Of a stretch of DNA of 64,000 nt, positions 8,545 through 47,115 are shown in pieces. The notes below the pieces were generated by a model that was not told the origin of the DNA, searched no databases, and worked only from the letters and a program-made list of their open reading frames with translations. Source of the DNA: Clostridia bacterium (GTDB lineage Bacteria; Bacillota; Clostridia; Oscillospirales; Acutalibacteraceae); NCBI GenBank assembly GCA_017537365.1, contig JAFYKZ010000026.1, positions 62,001-126,000 on the forward strand, given 5' to 3'. Positions within the stretch are counted from its first letter, which is position 1. The number at the start of each line of letters is the position of its first letter. The position numbers and the translations under genes were made by a program.

Positions 8545-8631
8545 GCCGGTGTGATGGAATTGGCAGACGTAGTGGACTCAAAATCCACCGGTAGCGATAC
8601 CGTGCCGGTTCGAGTCCGGCCACCGGCACCA
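8545..8631 (+). tRNA. tRNA-Leu (anticodon CAA)
   Basis: An 87-nt class II tRNA with encoded CCA. The acceptor stem is GCCGGTG/CACCGGC. The anticodon stem GTGGA/TCCAC encloses CTCAAAA, so the anticodon is CAA and reads UUG. A long variable arm is present, and the T-loop is GGTTCGAGTCC. It marks the upstream edge of accessory locus 1. Confidence 0.97.
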
Positions 8632-8634
8632 AAG

Positions 8635-8665
8635 AATCCTGAATGCGTCAGCGTTCAGGATTTTT
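8635..8665 (+). terminator. Terminator of tRNA-Leu(CAA)
   Basis: AATCCTGAATGC (8635-8646), loop GTCA, GCGTTCAGGATT (8651-8662), then T. The 5' arm also has a perfect inverted copy, GCATTCAGGATT, at 8703-8714. Confidence 0.85.
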
Positions 8666-8758
8666 ACTTATTACCTCTTACTTCTTCACTCTTACCTAAA
8701 TTGCATTCAGGATTTTTTGGAACGTAAGAAGTAATAGGTAAGAAGTAATAAGTATTTT
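8666..8758. repeat. Array A: two opposed blocks of 7-bp repeats (GTAAGAA/GTAATAR)
   Basis: On the + strand, 8724-8758 reads as consecutive heptamers: GTAAGAA, GTAATAG, GTAAGAA, GTAATAA, GTATTTT. On the - strand, 8697-8666 reads GTAAGAG, TGAAGAA, GTAAGAG, GTAATAA, GTAA. The two blocks face each other around a second copy of the tRNA-terminator arm (GCATTCAGGATTTTTT, 8703-8718). The array lies between tRNA-Leu and the four-helix-bundle gene. Confidence 0.85.
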
Positions 8759-8759
8759 T

Positions 8760-8801
8760 GCAAGGCTTTGCCTTGCTCTTTTTATTTTGTAGTGGTATAA
8801 T
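8760..8801 (+). promoter_or_regulatory. Hairpin plus extended -10 promoter for the four-helix-bundle gene
   Basis: GCAAGGC-TTT-GCCTTGC (8760-8776) is a perfect hairpin followed by TCTTTTT, so it could also terminate transcription. TTGCTC (8773-8778) begins in its 3' arm and sits 17 bp before TATAAT (8796-8801), which is preceded by TGG. The same layout is found before the locus 2 paralogue. Confidence 0.65.
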
Positions 8802-8825: not shown

Positions 8826-9176
8826 ATGGCAGATAGTCCGTTGATTATAAAATCTAAAGAATTTGCTTTGCAGATAATTAAAGTTTGCAATTATGTAAAA
8901 CAAACTAAAAAGGAAAGCGTGTTAACTAATCAACTTATTCGCAGCGGAACAAGTATTGGCGCAAATATTCGAGAAGCATTTTATGGACACGGAACTGCCG
9001 ATTTTATTGCCAAACTTCAAATTGCGCTGAAAGAATGCTCTGAAAGCGAATATTGGCTTGAACTTTTAATTGAAAGCGGATATTATGATAACAACGAAAT
9101 TTTAGAAAAGTGCATTGAAGTTAAAAAGCTGTTGGTTACTTCAATAAATACTGCTAAAAGTAAGTTGAAGAAATAA
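8826..9176 (+). CDS. Four-helix-bundle protein (23S rRNA intervening-sequence / S23, Avd-like family), copy 1
   Basis: A 116-residue all-alpha protein of the TIGR02436/S23 four-helix-bundle family. The conserved core runs NQLIRSGTSIGANIREAF, then ADFIAKLQIALKECSESEYW, and the end is TAKSKLKK. Relatives were first named from intervening sequences in 23S rRNA. The accessory protein Avd of diversity-generating retroelements has the same fold and binds nucleic acid. The ATG follows AAAGGCGGTAACATT. It sits behind repeat array A and starts a two-gene unit with a membrane protein. A paralogue about half identical in the core is at 44646-45011. Its function here is unknown; nucleic-acid binding is inferred from the fold and neighbourhood. 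Confidence 0.9.
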   Translation: MADSPLIIKSKEFALQIIKVCNYVKQTKKESVLTNQLIRSGTSIGANIREAFYGHGTADFIAKLQIALKECSESEYWLELLIESGYYDNNEILEKCIEVKKLLVTSINTAKSKLKK

Positions 9177-9193: not shown

Positions 9194-9628
9194 TTGAAAA
9201 GATTTAAAGAATTTATAATAATGTTTATTCCTTTTTTAGTGCTAAGTATTTTATCTGTTTTATGGTTTGTTTTTAACACATCAGGTGATTTTTTTGGTGG
9301 TGCGTATCTTCTTAAACTTATGCTTTCACCATATTTAATAATTGCGTTATTTAATACTTTTGTTTTGGCAGGAGTTCCTTCGCTTTTGCTTACGGGTGTT
9401 TTTGCTTTTTTAATTAGAAAAAAGAAAAGTAGCATAGGTAGACAAAAATATTATACATATTTATTTTTAATTTCGCTTATTGCTCCTGTTGTTATTGTTT
9501 TGATTTTAACACGGACATTTGATATTGTTAATAATACTATTTATTCATTACAAATTGGACTTCTTGTGGTGTTTATTCATTGGGTTATCGAATGGATAAT
9601 TGACAAGTGTAAAAACGGAAAGAATTAA
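9194..9628 (+). CDS. Four-helix membrane protein, cargo of accessory locus 1
   Basis: A 144-residue protein with about four membrane segments: residues ~8-26, ~38-75 as a hairpin pair, ~87-105, and ~117-136. It ends in a basic tail, DKCKNGKN. It starts with TTG at 9194 after AAGGCGGTGATGAT, 17 bp behind the four-helix-bundle gene, so the two are probably co-translated. I recognise no family and see no catalytic motif. Its place corresponds to the helical protein and nuclease of locus 2, so I treat it as variable cargo. Confidence 0.65.
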   Translation: MKRFKEFIIMFIPFLVLSILSVLWFVFNTSGDFFGGAYLLKLMLSPYLIIALFNTFVLAGVPSLLLTGVFAFLIRKKKSSIGRQKYYTYLFLISLIAPVVIVLILTRTFDIVNNTIYSLQIGLLVVFIHWVIEWIIDKCKNGKN

Positions 9629-9700
9629 GAAAAAATATAAAGAAAATAACGGTTTTCAGGCACATTTTATTCGTGTCATTAAGTTAGAAACACCAAAAAA

Positions 9701-9730
9701 AATTCCAAGTCTTCGGGCTTGAAATTTTTT
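9701..9730 (+). terminator. Terminator of accessory locus 1 genes
   Basis: AATTCCAAGTC (9701-9711), TTCG loop, GGCTTGAAATT (9716-9726), then T residues. It immediately precedes hairpin array B. Confidence 0.8.
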
Positions 9731-9732
9731 AT

Positions 9733-9811
9733 CCATTGCGAAAGCAAAGGCATATCATCACGCGTCAGCGTGTATATCATCAAAGGCGGCAAGCCGCCTT
9801 TGTATCTCATC
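9733..9811. repeat. Array B: three hairpins separated by TATATCAT-type linkers
   Basis: Order on the + strand: hairpin TTGC-GAAA-GCAA (9736-9747); linker CATATCAT (9751-9758); hairpin CACGC-GTCA-GCGTG (9759-9772); linker TATATCAT (9773-9780); a hairpin with a 10-bp stem (9781-9790 with 9793-9802, AA between); linker TATCTCAT (9803-9810). The linker is the same as in array C, 34 kb away, while the hairpins differ. Confidence 0.85.
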
Positions 9812-35236: not shown

Positions 35237-37078
35237 TTAATTTTCTTGATATTTTTTATTTGTAATTAGTTTTATAACAAACAATGTGCCAATCATAAGA
35301 GCTAATGCGATTGGTAAAGAAATATACCAAACAGGAATAAATCCTGCTATAATATAACTTACAAACGAAACGGCTGCAACGGTAAGTGCATAAGGCATTT
35401 GAGTTGAAACATGGTTAATATGGTCGCACTGCGCACCTGCGGAAGCCATAATTGTTGTATCAGAAATTGGTGAACAGTGGTCGCCGCAAACCGCACCTGC
35501 CATACAAGCAGAAATAGCAACGATTGTGATATTTCCATTTTCTGCACCGAACACACTGAGAACAATCGGAATAAGAATACCAAAAGTACCCCAAGAAGTA
35601 CCGGTTGCAAAAGAAAGACCAACAGCAATAAGGAAGATTATTGCGGGCAAGAAGGACATAAATCCGCTAGCGCTTCCCTCAACTAATTGAGCAATAAATA
35701 TTTTAGCACCGAGACTATCAGTCATAGCTTTAAGGGTCCAAGCGCAAACGAGAATCATAATAGCCGGAACCATTGCTTTAAATCCTTCGGGAATACATTC
35801 CATAATAGTTTTGAAAGAAATAGTTCTTCTGATAAGGAAATATACAGCCGAGAAAATTAAAGCGATAAATGAACCATATACCAAACCAACCGAAGCATTA
35901 CTGCCTGAGAATGAAGATATGAAGTTCATATATGATGAAGAATCAGAAGCAAAGAAACCGCCTGAATAAATCATACCGAATACGCAAGCAATAATAAGAA
36001 CAACAACGGGAATTATAAGGTCAAACACTTTGCCTTTATTATTTTCAGTAAGTTGTTCGGCTGCTTCTTGCATTTTAGAGGTGAAAATATCGCCGTTTTT
36101 AGCATTTTCTTCATGCTTTCTCATCGGACCGTAATCAAATTTAGCGAGTGCTAAGAAAATCATCATAGCAATGGTTAAAAGCGCATAGAAGTTAAAAGGA
36201 ATCGCATTAATGAAAAGCGACATACCATCTTGCGCGCCTGAGCCCTTTGCAAATCCCACAACCGCAGCAGCCCAAGAAGAAATAGGAGCGATAATACAAA
36301 TTGGAGCGGCAGTAGCATCAATTAAATAAGAAAGCTTTGCGCGAGAAACCTTTGCCTTATCGGTTACAGGACGCATAACAGAGCCAACTGTTAAGCAGTT
36401 GAAATAGTCGTCAACGAAAATCAAAACGCCGAGTAAAATTGTTGCAAGCTGAGCACCAACTCTGCTCTTTATGTGCTTCGAAGTCCATCTGCCGAATGCG
36501 GCAGAACCGCCCGATTTATTCATCATAGCAACGATTGCTCCAAGCAATACTAGGAATATTAAAATACCAACATTATATGAATCAGCAACACTGCTTACAA
36601 AGCCGTCGCTAAATACATGAGTCATTGTGGTTTCAAGATTAAATCCTGAATAAATCAAACCACCGGTTAAAATACCGAGGAATAATGAAGAATAAACTTC
36701 TTTTGTTATTAATGCTAAAACAATAGCCATGACTGCGGGCAATAAAGACCAAATTGTAGCATAAGATTTAGTAGTTTCACGAACTAATCCTAATGCTTCT
36801 TTTTGATGCTCTTTAAAATCAGGGTCATAAGTGATATTATTCTCATAATCATTCACATAATCCTGAGCAGTACCGGCTTCTTCATTTTCATCGTAGAAAT
36901 TGTAAACAACATCTTCGGGGTCGTTCTCACCGTCATCAATATGTACTGTAAATTCGGGAGACTCTTTTACTTTGGTTGCTTTGTCAGAAGTTGCTGCAAC
37001 ATTAAAAACAAAAGCTGAAGTTATGCAAAGCAAAGCAGCCAACATAATGACTAAAAGTGGTTTTCTAAGTCTTTTCAT
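35237..37078 (-). CDS. NhaC-family Na+/H+ antiporter-type transporter, probable lysine transporter
   Basis: A 613-residue membrane protein. It begins with a signal-like segment (KPLLVIMLAALLCITSAF) and an exported acidic region of about 100 residues. About 11-12 helices of the NhaC/ArsB-NhaD fold follow, with GVLIFVDDYFNCLTVG, DATAAPICIIAPISSW and AVCGDHCSPISDTTIMAS. NhaC proteins behind lysine riboswitches are regarded as lysine importers, and this one has such a riboswitch directly upstream. Hence a lysine role is more likely than pH homeostasis. The start at 37078 is preceded by AAAAAGGAGTTTTAAA; an upstream extension would be riboswitch sequence. Confidence 0.88.
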   Translation of the reverse strand: MKRLRKPLLVIMLAALLCITSAFVFNVAATSDKATKVKESPEFTVHIDDGENDPEDVVYNFYDENEEAGTAQDYVNDYENNITYDPDFKEHQKEALGLVRETTKSYATIWSLLPAVMAIVLALITKEVYSSLFLGILTGGLIYSGFNLETTMTHVFSDGFVSSVADSYNVGILIFLVLLGAIVAMMNKSGGSAAFGRWTSKHIKSRVGAQLATILLGVLIFVDDYFNCLTVGSVMRPVTDKAKVSRAKLSYLIDATAAPICIIAPISSWAAAVVGFAKGSGAQDGMSLFINAIPFNFYALLTIAMMIFLALAKFDYGPMRKHEENAKNGDIFTSKMQEAAEQLTENNKGKVFDLIIPVVVLIIACVFGMIYSGGFFASDSSSYMNFISSFSGSNASVGLVYGSFIALIFSAVYFLIRRTISFKTIMECIPEGFKAMVPAIMILVCAWTLKAMTDSLGAKIFIAQLVEGSASGFMSFLPAIIFLIAVGLSFATGTSWGTFGILIPIVLSVFGAENGNITIVAISACMAGAVCGDHCSPISDTTIMASAGAQCDHINHVSTQMPYALTVAAVSFVSYIIAGFIPVWYISLPIALALMIGTLFVIKLITNKKYQEN

Positions 37079-37106
37079 TTTAAAACTCCTTTTTAAAAAT
37101 ATAAAA

Positions 37107-37134
37107 ACCGTGAATGCAATAGAGCAATCACGGT
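37107..37134 (-). terminator. Expression-platform terminator of the lysine riboswitch
   Basis: On the minus strand, ACCGTGATTGC pairs with GCATTCACGGT, with one mismatch and a 6-nt loop, followed by TTTTT. It lies between the aptamer and the NhaC start. Confidence 0.85.
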
Positions 37135-37147
37135 AATTTAAAAAATT

Positions 37148-37308
37148 CCGATAGCGCTCCACTGAAAGTGACAGTCTGCAACATATTCTGGTGCAAACCA
37201 ACAATAAATCCTGAACAGAAAATTTATTATTTCGGCAGTTGTCCCTTTCTTTCGCAGACCTGTCCGTCTAAAAAGCGAAATACTAATGGCAAACTGCACC
37301 TCTATCGT
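37148..37308 (-). promoter_or_regulatory. Lysine riboswitch (L box)
   Basis: The minus strand opens with GATAGAGGTGC, then AGTA in an internal loop, and GGGACAACTGCCGAAA in the middle. It closes with GTGGAGCGCTATC, which re-forms P1. These are the conserved L-box blocks in order, at normal ~160-nt spacing. Lysine binding should favour the terminator at 37107-37134 and switch off the transporter. Confidence 0.92.
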
Positions 37309-37312
37309 GCAA

Positions 37313-42775: not shown

Positions 42776-43399
42776 TTATATAGGTAAGCCTAAAGAGTTA
42801 TTTTTAAATTTAGGATTTGTATTTATATCTTCAGAAACTGATGTTAAACTGTTCGCTGTTTCTTTAATTATTTTTGCAACTTGTTCGGCGCATAATTTAA
42901 TGCCGTCATTTGTAAGATGAATGGTGTCATCAGAAATATATCGATAAACATCAGTTGCAACTATACTGTGCAAATCGTTTATAATAACACCCTTTTCACA
43001 AAGTTTTGGAACAATTATTTGATTATAACGCTCTATAACCGAATTTTTATCATACGGATTTTCAGGTCTTGTAGGTGTTGTGGTTGCAAAAATAACTTTA
43101 TCGTATTTTTTAGTTAATATATCGGCTATTCTTAAAATATTTGTGATATATTCTTCTTCGCTTGAAAAAGGACCATCGCCAAAAAGATTGCAAATATCCC
43201 ATAATCCATTATTCCAATGAACGATATTTGTGCCTTCCATTTGTTTGCTCCAATCAAACAATCCGCGAAGAGTATACTTTGCAAACCTACAATTATCACT
43301 CGGCTGAAAAACCTCAAAATCGTTACCGAGAAGTTCCGGCACAACTTTGCCATAACCTATCAAACGAATAGAATCTCCGAGCAAAGCAACTTTTATCAT
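42776..43399 (-). CDS. SGNH/GDSL-family hydrolase
   Basis: A 207-residue protein with block I LLGDSIRLIGYG and the Gly/Asn blocks NIVHWNNGLWD, where an Asn is usual. The catalytic Asp-His pair is in DDTIHLTNDG. SGNH enzymes are esterases or lipases, often acting on acetylated carbohydrates; no signal peptide is seen. The ATG at 43399 lies eight bases after GGAGG. The -35 of its promoter touches the outermost hairpin of array C. Confidence 0.85.
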   Translation of the reverse strand: MIKVALLGDSIRLIGYGKVVPELLGNDFEVFQPSDNCRFAKYTLRGLFDWSKQMEGTNIVHWNNGLWDICNLFGDGPFSSEEEYITNILRIADILTKKYDKVIFATTTPTRPENPYDKNSVIERYNQIIVPKLCEKGVIINDLHSIVATDVYRYISDDTIHLTNDGIKLCAEQVAKIIKETANSLTSVSEDINTNPKFKNNSLGLPI

Positions 43400-43433
43400 A
43401 GCTGATACCTCCATGCAAAAACATTATGGTTTG

Positions 43434-43462
43434 ATTATAGCATGATAGCGGCAAAAAATCAA
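43434..43462 (-). promoter_or_regulatory. Promoter of the SGNH gene, -35 overlapping array C hairpin
   Basis: Minus strand TTGATT (43462-43457), 17-bp spacer, TATAAT (43439-43434). The first three bases of the -35 are the end of hairpin CAATGC-TTC-GCATTG. Confidence 0.7.
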
Positions 43463-43632
43463 TGCGAAGCATTGTATATCATCAATTCCTAGGGGAATTG
43501 CATATCATCAAAACTTTAGTTTTGTATATCATCAAGCCGACAACAATGCACACCTAAAGGTGTGATGATATACGCCTTCGGCGATGATATACACAACTGC
43601 GTCGTGATGATATACCAAGCCTGTCGGCTTGG
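43460..43632. repeat. Array C: hairpins separated by the 8-nt linker TATATCAT, with an inverted inner part
   Basis: Left part, + strand: CAATGC-GAA-GCATTG (43460-43474), TATATCAT, CAATTCC-TAGG-GGAATTG (43483-43500), CATATCAT, CAAAAC-TTTA-GTTTTG (43509-43524), TATATCAT, then the half hairpin CAAGCCGACA (43533-43542). Right part: CACACC-TAAA-GGTGTG (43549-43564), CGCC-TTC-GGCG (43573-43583), CACAAC-TGC-GTCGTG (43592-43606) and CCAAGCC-TGTC-GGCTTGG (43615-43632). These are separated by ATGATATA, the reverse complement of the linker. The inverted-repeat arms 43533-43542 and 43622-43631 bound the flipped part. Confidence 0.92.
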
Positions 43633-43635
43633 ATA

Positions 43636-43669
43636 AAAAAACACTCGTTCAAGAGAACGAGTGTTTTTT
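43636..43669. terminator. Strong bidirectional-looking terminator beside array C
   Basis: AAAAAACACTCGTTC (43636-43650), AAGA loop, GAACGAGTGTTTTTT (43655-43669). It lies downstream of the nuclease-like gene on the minus strand. Confidence 0.9.
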
Positions 43670-43734
43670 GGGACCGACACTCAAAACGGAACCGGTCGAA
43701 AACCTGATTTTCTTTAATTTTGCAATCATTTTGC

Positions 43735-44247
43735 CTATACACCATATGTATCAAACATATACTTTGCACGTTCTTTTGTAAATTCCCATTCATTTGGTAC
43801 TTTATCTACCGTTCCAGCCGCAAACGCTTGGGCTCCCCATTTGTGATTCTCATATAAAATTGTATCGCCACGACCATTTGCCTGATTTTTCAAAATTTCC
43901 GCAATTTCTTGCGGGGTGGCCAAATACATTCGCGGCAATTGCGTATCATCAACATTTACGAATTGGACCAAGCAGAATATGGTTTTCTTATGGTGATTTT
44001 TCAACCATTCATCAACTGCTTCATGATAAGTTCGACCTTGTTTATACTTTTGTGTCAATCCCCATCCGCCATCTTTGCTGCCTTTTACTGAAATTTTTAG
44101 TATTTTGTCATCAATTTCTGCCATTAAATCATACTCGGGTTGATTCGCTCCATATTGTACAGAAACATAATAACCGAATCGTGCAAATTGAGCGGCCGCT
44201 ATGGCTTCAGCGGCAACACCAATGTGCCAAGAACTTACTTTATCCAA
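43735..44247 (-). CDS. PD-(D/E)XK-like nuclease, cargo of accessory locus 2
   Basis: A 170-residue protein. The N-terminal helix carries GVAAEAIAAAQFARFGYYVS, followed by ANQPEYDLMAEI and then KILKISVKGSKDGG. This spacing of Glu, Asp and (I)SVK is the PD-(D/E)XK nuclease pattern, closest by eye to the small I-Ssp6803I-like endonuclease group. The last catalytic position has Ser in place of Glu/Gln, a known variation. It starts with TTG at 44247, right after the TAG of the upstream gene and GGGGGGATTTAG, so it is translationally coupled. Cleavage target unknown. Confidence 0.65.
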   Translation of the reverse strand: MDKVSSWHIGVAAEAIAAAQFARFGYYVSVQYGANQPEYDLMAEIDDKILKISVKGSKDGGWGLTQKYKQGRTYHEAVDEWLKNHHKKTIFCLVQFVNVDDTQLPRMYLATPQEIAEILKNQANGRGDTILYENHKWGAQAFAAGTVDKVPNEWEFTKERAKYMFDTYGV

Positions 44248-44631
44248 CTAAATCCCCCCTTTGCTTTCAACATAAAACGGAAAATGTTCATCTCCATATT
44301 TGTATCTAAATTCAGAGATTTCTCCGTCAAAAGTATATAAAGGGCGAACTTTCATACAAATTTCAGGCATGTTATGAATCGCATCAGCAAAATCATTGGT
44401 TTTTTCAGAATTCCCTTCGCTAATAACTTGTAATAACATTTCAATGCAATACACTAAAATATCATTATTGTTTTCACTAATATACAAATTCAATTCTTCT
44501 AAAAAAGGAGTCAAACGATCTTTAAAATATTCAAGTTTCTCCCTCTGCTCTTTTTTTGAATTTTTTCTCGCGAATGAAAGCCGTGCATAAATAAAAATAC
44601 TTTTTAATTCCCTGTAAAATTCAACATTCAT
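44248..44631 (-). CDS. Unrecognised helical protein, cargo of accessory locus 2
   Basis: A 127-residue, largely alpha-helical, charged protein. Visible stretches are a basic segment, ARLSFARKNSKKEQREKLEY, and an amphipathic helix, NNDILVYCIEMLLQVISEG. The Tyr/Phe-rich end reads FRYKYGDEHFPFYVESKGGI. I recognise no family. It sits 14 bp after the four-helix-bundle gene and abuts the nuclease-like gene, so the three are one transcript. A partner or immunity role for the nuclease is possible but unproven. Confidence 0.6.
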   Translation of the reverse strand: MNVEFYRELKSIFIYARLSFARKNSKKEQREKLEYFKDRLTPFLEELNLYISENNNDILVYCIEMLLQVISEGNSEKTNDFADAIHNMPEICMKVRPLYTFDGEISEFRYKYGDEHFPFYVESKGGI

Positions 44632-44645
44632 ATCATCACCATGAG

Positions 44646-45011
44646 TTATTTATTCAACTTGCTTTTTGCTGTTTTAATCGAAGCAATTAATAATATGCGA
44701 ATTGTCGAGCAAGTCTTATCAATAGATTTATAGGTTGCTTCATCAATATAATTAGATTTCAAAAGCATTTCAAGCCATTTCCCAGTTTCGCTTGCTTCTT
44801 TTAATGCAATCTTAAGTTTAGCAATGAAATCAGCACGGCTATGACCGTATTTACTCTCTGCAATATTAGCACAAACGCTTGTTGCGCTTCTGCCAATTTG
44901 ATTTGAAATAACAGTTTCGTGTTTTGCTTTTAATTCTTTTGTCAGTTTCAAAACATCAACAGATAACTGCATAGACAAATCAGAAAGTTTATCCTCTTTG
45001 ATTGCTATCAC
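44646..45011 (-). CDS. Four-helix-bundle protein (S23/Avd-like family), copy 2
   Basis: About 118-121 residues, paralogous to the gene at 8826. The shared core is NQIGRSATSVCANIAES, then ADFIAKLKIALKEASETGKW, and the ending TAKSKLNK. The start is odd. GTG at 45011 overlaps the AGAGAGGTGA ribosome-binding site. ATC at 45002 is at ideal distance and gives a length matching copy 1, so either ATC is used or an ATG was lost. It lies between hairpin array D and a helical protein plus nuclease gene. A nucleic-acid-binding role is inferred from the Avd fold and the arrays. Confidence 0.85.
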   Translation of the reverse strand: MIAIKEDKLSDLSMQLSVDVLKLTKELKAKHETVISNQIGRSATSVCANIAESKYGHSRADFIAKLKIALKEASETGKWLEMLLKSNYIDEATYKSIDKTCSTIRILLIASIKTAKSKLNK

Positions 45012-45027
45012 CTCTCTTATGGTATAG

Positions 45028-45056
45028 ATTATACCATAAATTTGCGCAAAGCGCAA
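45028..45056 (-). promoter_or_regulatory. Extended -10 promoter of copy 2, -35 inside array D hairpin
   Basis: Minus strand TTGCGC (45056-45051), 17-bp spacer, TATAAT (45033-45028) preceded by TGG. The -35 is the 5' arm of hairpin TTGCGC-TTT-GCGCAA. A perfect 8-bp dyad (45019-45026 with 45030-45037) spans the -10. Confidence 0.7.
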
Positions 45057-45245
45057 CATCGTTTGCACCGCAAGGTGTAACATCATTGATGCGGAGCATC
45101 ACATCGTTTTTGACGAAGTCAAAACATCGTTTATGGCGTTAGCCATAACATCATTTTGTGTCCGCTAAAGCGGAATGATGTTATCCTTCGGATAAATGAT
45201 GTTGCGAGTAAACTCGCAAACGAAGTTGTGTCCTGCGGACACAAA
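45042..45245. repeat. Array D: nine hairpins separated by the 6-nt linker CATCRT, with an inverted inner part
   Basis: Left part: hairpins at 45042-45056 (loop AAA), 45063-45080 (GCAA), 45087-45101 (GGA), 45108-45124 (GAA) and 45131-45148 (GTTA). Linkers CATCGT or CATCAT start at 45057, 45081, 45102, 45125 and 45149. Right part: TCCGC-TAAA-GCGGA (45161-45174), TTATCC-TTC-GGATAA (45181-45195), TTGCGAG-TAAA-CTCGCAA (45202-45219) and TTGTGTCC-TGC-GGACACAA (45226-45244). Its linkers read ATGATG, ATGATG and ACGAAG, that is, inverted. Arms TTTGTGTCCGC (45155-45165) and GCGGACACAAA (45235-45245) bound the flipped part. Confidence 0.93.
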
Positions 45246-45255
45246 CACAAAAAGA

Positions 45256-45279
45256 AAGACACGATTTTCATCGTGTCTT
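45256..45279 (-). terminator. Terminator of the tRNA-Thr/tRNA-Leu transcript
   Basis: AAGACACGAT (45256-45265) pairs perfectly with ATCGTGTCTT (45270-45279). On the minus strand TCTTTTT follows. Confidence 0.9.
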
Positions 45280-45285
45280 CCTTTT

Positions 45286-45372
45286 TGGTGCCGATGACCG
45301 GACTTGAACCGGTACGATATTGCTACCGAGGGATTTTAAGTCCCTTGTGTCTGCCTATTCCACCACATCGGC
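45286..45372 (-). tRNA. tRNA-Leu (anticodon TAA)
   Basis: An 87-nt class II tRNA with encoded CCA. The acceptor stem is GCCGATG/CATCGGC. The anticodon stem AGGGA/TCCCT encloses CTTAAAA, so the anticodon is UAA and reads UUA. A long variable arm is present, and the T-loop region is GGTTCAAGTCC. Co-transcribed with tRNA-Thr, and the upstream edge of accessory locus 2. Confidence 0.97.
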
Positions 45373-46867: not shown

Positions 46868-47115
46868 AAAAAGTCTTGCCCCATTGGGACAAGACGAAAA
46901 TACTTGTTTAGCCACCCTTAAAGTTAACTAATTCTCACACAAAAATGCAAGCCGTTCTGATAACGGGTACGGAACCCGTCGGTTACTACTAGCAAATGCT
47001 TTCGACCGCCCTCATAAGTCCATTCACAAATCCTCAGCCACAGTATTTCCACCATCAACTGCTCTCTAAATGCCTTGATATTTGCTACTACTCTTAATCA
47101 CAGGTTTAATTTATA
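46868..47115 (-). promoter_or_regulatory. T-box leader, tryptophan specifier (TGG), upstream of trpB
   Basis: On the minus strand, AGAGAGCAG and GTGGAAA-type stem I elements appear near 47066-47040. The specifier GAA-TGG-ACT has TGG at 47022-47020. The conserved AAGGGTGG lies at 46919-46912. The terminator GTCTTGTCCC-ATT-type stem lies at 46896-46873, followed by TTTTTT. Uncharged tRNA-Trp should allow read-through into trpB. Confidence 0.9.

Follow-up and report, generated by a model that had tools for sequence, protein, structure and literature searches.

The window analysed here is a stretch of 64,000 nucleotides from a Clostridia bacterium of the Acutalibacteraceae (GenBank assembly GCA_017537365.1, contig JAFYKZ010000026.1, positions 62,001 to 126,000 of the forward strand). 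It carries two small gene cassettes, each standing directly behind a tRNA-Leu gene and each composed of a terminator hairpin, an array of seven-base repeats, a gene for a four-helix-bundle protein of the PF05635/TIGR02436 family, and cargo. The two are not isolated loci; their anatomy is one instance of a widespread family of cassettes in gut bacteria that has not been described before. The cassettes are inserted exactly past the CCA end of the tRNA and in one orientation, they stack, they exchange cargo, and a single cassette is found behind different tRNAs. Each protein clade is accompanied by its own type of heptad, and the structure of the arrays is conserved. The genome of the window (G000; 1.72 Mb in 31 contigs, 98% complete) was compared with that of a sister species (G060) and with further relatives, nearly all of them metagenome-assembled genomes (MAGs), and 157-158 loci with PF05635/TIGR02436 genes were gathered, which are labelled here with L-numbers.

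Insertion is seen in the comparison with G060, whose flanking genes have 99% and 92% amino-acid identity to those of the window. At locus 1, on the plus strand, the G060 sequence runs ...CGGCACCA and then into a terminator, a TATATCAT array and the next gene, which is an empty site; the window has about 1.07-1.09 kb extra, exactly past the CCA. The insert follows the tRNA-Leu(CAA) gene found by ARAGORN (8545..8631). It begins with a terminator hairpin (8632..8665), delimited by folding and by the comparison with G060, and continues with array A (8661..8776), a tandem-heptad palindrome of the CTTACTT type with a promoter-side hairpin GCAAGGC/GCCTTGC. The four-helix-bundle gene (8826..9176), recognised by its profile matches, and a gene for a small protein read as a membrane protein, to which profile searches assigned no family (9194..9628), come next. 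The cassette closes with a right-end site of type 1 (GGTTTTCAGGCAC..ATTCGTGTCATTAAGTT..CACCA; 9643..9700), which model R1 scores at 61 bits (E 5e-17), this site being among the 33 sequences from which the model was built. The terminator and array B that follow (9697..9811; TATATCAT type) belong to an older cassette, and the array and the gene after it are also present in G060. Within the heptad palindrome at 8632-8730, the loop holds a partial copy of the 3′ arm of the tRNA terminator (GCATTCAGGATTTTT); the same is seen in the loop of L004 (GTCGATTTT), and it is also visible in L086, L092 and L095.

At locus 2, on the minus strand, G060 again has an empty site, ...CGGCACCA AAAAACACTCG followed by a terminator and a TATATCAT array. 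The insert in the window, about 1.6 kb with a new terminator, array D, the protein gene and two cargo genes, lies between the CCA and the old terminator. Its insertion point is the CCA 3′ end of tRNA-Leu(UAA) (45286..45372; ARAGORN). The left-end terminator hairpin (45248..45287) begins right at the CCA and is absent from the G060 site. Array D (45042..45247) has heptads ACATCRT / AYGATGT with hairpins between them, and ends in a promoter, TTGCGC-17-TATAAT (45028..45056), read by eye and below the threshold of the scan of this locus. Because of this position, most of array D lies outside the transcript of the gene, and the coding start, uncertain in itself, is better placed near 45011 than at 45086. 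The four-helix-bundle gene, again identified by profile matches, then extends over 44646..45011. Profile searches found no family for the first cargo gene (44248..44631; 127 aa) and a weak PD-(D/E)XK / YraN-like resemblance for the second (43735..44247; 170 aa; PDDEXK_5 E 2e-4, below cut-off; YraN E 0.005). The right-end site is of type 2 (GAAAATCAGGTTTTCGACCGGTTCCGTTTTGAGTGTCGGTCCCA; 43669..43712), its junction given by the G060 empty site, and similar ends occur in L197, L211 and L214. Beyond it stand the old tRNA terminator, which in G060 directly follows tRNA-Leu, and array C with TATATCAT heptads (43460..43669), the left end of an older cassette. The cargo of that older cassette in the window is a GDSL-like gene (42776..43414; weak Lipase_GDSL_2 E 9e-4, below cut-off); G060 has unrelated genes in its place, and the two genomes rejoin at one core gene. 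Ten terminator-like hairpins were counted in locus 2, compared with 1.7 expected.

A third site, at tRNA-Gly beside the L7/L12 gene, holds a solo CTTAC-type palindrome in G000 and two tandem protein cassettes in G060, the second of them preceded by 23 nt that repeat the end of the tRNA gene (3′) exactly. Thus all three sites compared between the sister species differ by whole cassettes; the empty sites come from one sister MAG, and the three independent sites agree. A search with the locus-2 neighbour gene in 18 further genomes of the genus gave no second orthologous tRNA-Leu site. The first-pass annotation of the window had described the order of tRNA-Leu, array, four-helix-bundle gene and cargo, which ARAGORN, the PF05635/TIGR02436 matches and the folding scores given below bear out. 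It had also read the loci as mobile cassettes with a common layout and proposed alignment with relatives as the check, fixed inherited positions being the contrary outcome; the empty sites at both loci, exact at the CCA, support its reading. It had, however, taken arrays B and C as the distal ends of the cassettes. The comparison with G060 shows that both arrays go with the gene that comes next, and each is the left end of an older cassette further back in the stack.

The association with tRNA genes extends far beyond the window. Four PF05635 genes, one truncated, were found by genome search in G000, and 44 of 60 relatives have members of the family, their number per genome ranging from zero to nine. 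A search with the protein of the window itself led, among named loci, mostly to Clostridia and Oscillospiraceae MAGs of ruminant guts. A tRNA or tmRNA gene lies less than 700 nt upstream of 95 of 157 protein genes, on the same strand in 95 of 95 cases, compared with 2% for random positions in the same loci. The spacing from tRNA to gene is mostly about 175-200 nt for plain heptad arrays and 245-300 nt for hairpin arrays, and in nearly all tRNA-linked loci the terminator hairpin of the element begins zero to a few bases past the CCA. The targets are not limited to tRNA-Leu, as had first been proposed: 30 tRNA/tmRNA types stand ahead of cassettes, with 55 changes of state on the protein tree, compared with a shuffled mean of 69, and this rules out tRNA-Leu specificity. 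RNase P RNA and 5S rRNA were each seen once, the former ahead of L037 in an Rfam search of 20 loci without tRNA, the latter by eye ahead of the L012 element. The same Rfam search placed a tmRNA near L038, on the opposite strand, and the Gut-1 motif in L031. An Omnitrophota gene (L162) lies between tRNA-Thr and tRNA-Tyr, flanked by inverted heptads and accompanied by a second tRNA-Thr-like 3′ end.

One and the same cassette has spread among different tRNAs. A cassette of 1283 bp stands behind tRNA-Ser in L145 and, with 96% identity, behind tRNA-Gln in L148. The terminator-array-gene block of the window, with array D, is 79-86% identical to blocks in other genomes behind tRNA-Thr, tRNA-Cys and a different tRNA-Leu, the homology running from the tRNA 3′ end to the stop codon of the gene, and one terminator sequence is common to four loci of different genomes behind tmRNA, tRNA-Gln and tRNA-Leu ends. 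L148 also has, at 2500-2800, a second array without a starting terminator, beside an inverted stretch similar to the 3′ end of tRNA-Gln. L104, from a MAG labelled Lentisphaeria, and L106, from one labelled Clostridia, have the same cassette region, which points to either a misbinned contig or a very recent transfer.

The arrays accompany the protein gene, as the first-pass annotation had expected of relatives. In the 450 nt upstream of the gene, at least five perfect hairpins occur in 63% of 158 PF05635 loci compared with 3.6% of 302 control genes, and a 7-mer in at least four copies occurs in 71% compared with 7%. Single-strand folding of arrays A, C and D is far more stable than that of dinucleotide shuffles (z=-7.1, z=-11.9 and z=-9.1; 0 of 200 shuffles as good). 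The linkers between hairpins, earlier put at a fixed 6-8 nt, are the repeat unit itself, which is seven bases: in tandem repeats only lag 7 rises above background, with one locus at the multiple 14. In hairpin-rich arrays it is the heptads that link one hairpin to the next, and they appear as reverse complements in the array's second half. Heptad types include ACATCRT, CTTCATT, ATTTCAY, TATATCA, AATTCAT, CTTACTT and others. Mapped on the protein tree, the types of 105 labelled loci require 20 changes, whereas 100 shuffles needed 60 on average and never fewer than 55. Since array type goes with protein clade, the window arrays A, D and B/C represent three different families; the CTTACTT type of array A recurs across its own protein clade. 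Such agreement is as expected from linked inheritance of array and gene.

The heptads hardly vary among 18 relatives of array D, and the stems vary on both sides in 43 of 67 pairs, with double-sided changes in 182 cells compared with 54 when shuffled and 18-39 in slid controls. This covariation shows that the structure of the array is conserved; it does not show by which route, since replacement of whole hairpins gives an equal signal. In the TATATCAT arrays the first hairpin is of the AAGCCGACAGGCTTGG or the ATTGCGAAAGCAAAGG type, and the two species have these types at opposite loci (9731-9750 and 43606-43631 of the window; L167 and L168 of G060), as if the starts of the arrays had been exchanged.

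Some arrays proved to contain a motif already on record. Gut-1 (Rfam RF01706) was listed in 2010 as an RNA candidate from the human gut, with no function (PMC2864571). Inverted pairs of matches to this family occur in arrays with GTGATAT and TATATCA heptads. The arrays of the window, which are of other heptad types, gave no RF01706 match in the Rfam search, and those of L196 reached 48 and 45 bits against the cut-off of 50. Gut-1 is present in 44 of 60 relatives, with at most 48 per genome, and its covariance-model score exceeds the gathering threshold in 39 of 60. Its counts correlate with those of PF05635 (Spearman 0.70, and 0.57 within the genus); the latter is the fairer value because shared phylogeny inflates such correlations. 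Among the best 30 Gut-1 loci, 17 have a tRNA or tmRNA, mostly directly upstream and on the same strand.

The right end of the locus-1 cassette, GGTTTTCAGGCACATTTTATTCGTGTCATTAAGTT..CACCA, is a conserved end-site of ~55 bp. Its core occurs 32 times in 19 of 61 genomes of the genus, compared with zero for the reversed control pattern. Usually a terminator comes immediately after it, and then an array, which can be of any heptad type. Five contigs have two copies 0.65-2.3 kb apart, and those fully read hold cassettes between them; tandem cassettes bounded by a common site, as in integrons, are observed. RNAalifold found no consensus pairs in end-site 1, for which reason it is treated as a sequence site; a putative GGCAC/GTGYC pairing is visible. 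The 130 detected arrays follow a full tRNA in 68 cases, end-site 1 in 11, end-site 2 in 7, and a partial tRNA 3′ end in 7. About ten copies of tRNA 3′ ends were seen at right ends overall; a general duplication of the tRNA 3′ end was rejected, the excess over control being confined to the longest matches, in 2-3 of 88 loci.

Cargo is variable, as the first reading had it: 76 open reading frames fall into 65 clusters, 57 of them single, some of which may be flanking core genes. Low counts of GNAT, NUDIX, HTH and other families were found, along with regulator, kinase-like and TIR genes. A defence role was considered and set aside, PADLOC matches being scattered, with one or two proteins each. 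Many cassettes have no four-helix-bundle gene, and end-sites occur without a detected PF05635 gene in genomes G003, G015, G023 and G031.

Both window proteins match PF05635 (E 2e-24 and 2e-26; 87-93 bits compared with the curated cut-off of 33.8) and TIGR02436 (98-102 bits; cut-off 24). An AlphaFold2 model of the locus-2 protein is a four-helix bundle (pLDDT 93). Its closest solved structures are the S23-family proteins 2RLD (TM 0.95) and 2GSC (TM about 0.86). The structural kinship to Avd of diversity-generating retroelements (DGRs) suggested earlier is also evident (4DWL, TM about 0.75-0.84), at a sequence identity of 10-12%. S23/IVP proteins have been proposed since 1993 to aid the mobility of rRNA intervening sequences (IVS); we know of no demonstration of their function.

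We think it somewhat more probable than otherwise that these are mobile cassettes in which the four-helix-bundle protein serves as an adaptor and a recombinase acts in trans. A cassette inserts in one orientation at the CCA 3′ end of a tRNA gene, a tmRNA gene or one of a few other stable-RNA genes, before the terminator. It opens with a terminator hairpin of its own, followed by the palindromic array of heptads and hairpins and by a promoter; then come, as a rule, the four-helix-bundle gene and/or a passenger, and a right end finishing in a CCA-like end-site or a copy of a tRNA 3′ end. Such a right end offers a new CCA-type end, and so permits stacking. The array probably acts as DNA rather than RNA, because it sits between the terminator and the promoter of the gene. 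The protein is probably pentameric, as its solved relatives are, and may bind its own heptad array and join the cassette to the tRNA end; recognition of the array is suggested by the way heptad type tracks the protein tree. Strand exchange would be the work of a trans-acting enzyme. A tyrosine recombinase of the host or of a prophage is the most plausible candidate, because G000 has eight such enzymes and no reverse transcriptase was found in it. Arrays without a protein gene would then be non-autonomous copies. A bolder proposal, to which we give somewhat less than even odds, is a new kind of site-specific mobile DNA. The four-helix bundle, which has no known catalytic activity, would be the one dedicated protein of the cassettes, reading its own heptads and targeting stable-RNA 3′ ends in general, with the 23S IVS as one branch and the whole forming a second natural gene-cassette capture system beside integrons.

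Several observations weigh against the adaptor model. Recombination itself was not seen, and nothing connects a particular recombinase with the cassettes. Linked inheritance by itself would make heptad type track the protein. Sixty-two protein genes have no nearby tRNA, and 37 of the 130 detected arrays, false array calls included, have no recognised right end before them. Right ends are not uniform, comprising end-site types 1 and 2 and tRNA 3′ copies of about 11-23 nt, and a tRNA-end copy is not general among them. In Akkermansia (L164) the gene lies between protein genes, within inverted hexads, and genes of the L001 clade lie between protein genes within simple inverted repeats. Together with L162, L164 and the IVS of Coxiella suggest one broad family, three cases being no proof. 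L001 itself is a further PF05635 gene of G000 (1340-1960 of that locus), flanked by two direct ~100-bp copies of one palindrome with TGCAAAATGCTAAAT heptads, an arrangement unlike that of the tRNA-linked cassettes. In a clade next to L001, the genes of L014 and L015 lie between or at the end of apparent topoisomerase subunit genes, within inverted heptads, an operon-borne, IVS-like form.

Of the other explanations, the one that survives best is an integron-like system in which a tyrosine recombinase in trans moves cassettes on its own, through the end-site and the CCA of the tRNA, the protein being a passenger or an autoregulator of its own promoter; we regard this as rather unlikely. The tandem cassettes with a conserved end-site, the many cassettes without the protein gene and the four genomes with end-sites and no detected PF05635 would all fit it. 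So would the eight PF00589 proteins of G000, none of which lies within the two window cassettes, and the stretches of 19-25 nt, copied from tRNA 3′ ends, that stand at some right ends and resemble the leavings of tRNA-targeting recombinases. On the other hand, the protein is found repeatedly next to cargo of unrelated kinds, heptad type agrees with its clade, and the tRNA targets have little but CCA in common, which would be unusual for a sequence-specific recombinase. The suggestion that the arrays are Gut-1 non-coding RNAs, bound by the protein in the way that Avd binds DGR RNA, and spread by reverse transcription, appears very improbable. RF01706 is curated as an RNA (PMC2864571), the fold resembles that of Avd, and copies of the 23S rRNA IVS are transcribed (PMC4990558). 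Yet the arrays are placed past a terminator and ahead of a promoter, a single palindrome gives a Gut-1 match on either strand, and an RVT_1 profile search gave no match in G000, the domain being absent also from 32 of the 44 genomes with the four-helix-bundle protein; a reverse-transcriptase or DGR mechanism was discarded for this want of co-occurrence. Transcription insulators or regulatory arrays that hold fixed places downstream of tRNA genes and are passed on vertically, the protein acting as a regulator, would agree with the bidirectional terminator hairpins and with arrays set between terminator and promoter, but are already contradicted by the whole-cassette differences at the sister-species sites and by the same cassette behind different tRNAs, and have almost no chance of being correct.

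Elsewhere in the window a lysine riboswitch (104 bits) lies at 37144-37312 on the minus strand, upstream of the gene at 35237-37204, and a T-box leader-like match at 46882-47110, also on the minus strand, scores 86 bits, a little short of the gathering score (93).

Among known systems the 23S rRNA IVS of Coxiella and Leptospira is related by its PF05635 protein and its association with a stable-RNA gene. In Coxiella, tandem heptamer repeats lie directly upstream of the S23 gene (PMC4990558). The elements of the window lie instead behind tRNA genes, not within 23S rRNA, and the cassettes add a terminator and promoter of their own, hairpins between heptads, passengers, an end-site and tandem stacking. 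Inverted repeats around the gene, an IVS trait, were seen in L162 and L164, while the palindrome of the window is wholly upstream of the gene. With integron cassettes they share small, diverse passengers, one orientation, a fixed acceptor, a short conserved 3′ site and structured DNA; they differ in that the acceptors are many tRNA ends, each cassette has its own promoter and terminator, and no integrase was found adjacent. The attC boxes of integrons are RYYYAAC / GTTRRRY. The end-site consensus, read by eye from 33 sequences, has GTTCAAA and no symmetrical boxes. The system is therefore filed under neither integrons nor the 23S IVS, since it lacks the site of the one and the location of the other. 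REP/BIME elements with RAYT are similar in having palindrome arrays between genes, some copies being non-autonomous, and a linked protein of one family, which here is not a Y1 HUH enzyme; PF01797 had no match in several array-rich genomes (G039, G047, G059) and one in G000, on another contig, so that Y1 transposases do not follow the arrays and this link was ruled out. Integrative islands likewise target tRNA 3′ ends, and some right ends here are exact copies of such ends, but most are not, the cassettes measure about 0.6-4 kb, and no integrase or other recombinase and no reverse transcriptase was recognised in the two of the window, in agreement with the first-pass annotation. Avd is alike in fold, and differs in its reverse transcriptase, of which G000 gave no RVT_1 match; template and variable repeats were not searched for. 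The orphan non-coding RNA candidate Gut-1 turns up here as one half of the palindromic array found at a cassette's left end. The S23/IVP family and the Gut-1 motif were each known separately, and a search of the open-access literature gave no account of a cassette system joining them; as far as that literature shows, the tRNA 3′-end acceptor, heptad arrays paired with protein clades, the end-site and tandem stacking are new in combination. They give a testable setting to three orphans, the S23/IVP family, the Gut-1 'RNA' and the arrays of hairpins that gut Clostridia have behind their tRNA genes. If the proposal is correct, uncultured gut Firmicutes would acquire and shuffle small genes at tRNA genes in the manner of integrons, with no recognisable integrase in the cassette.

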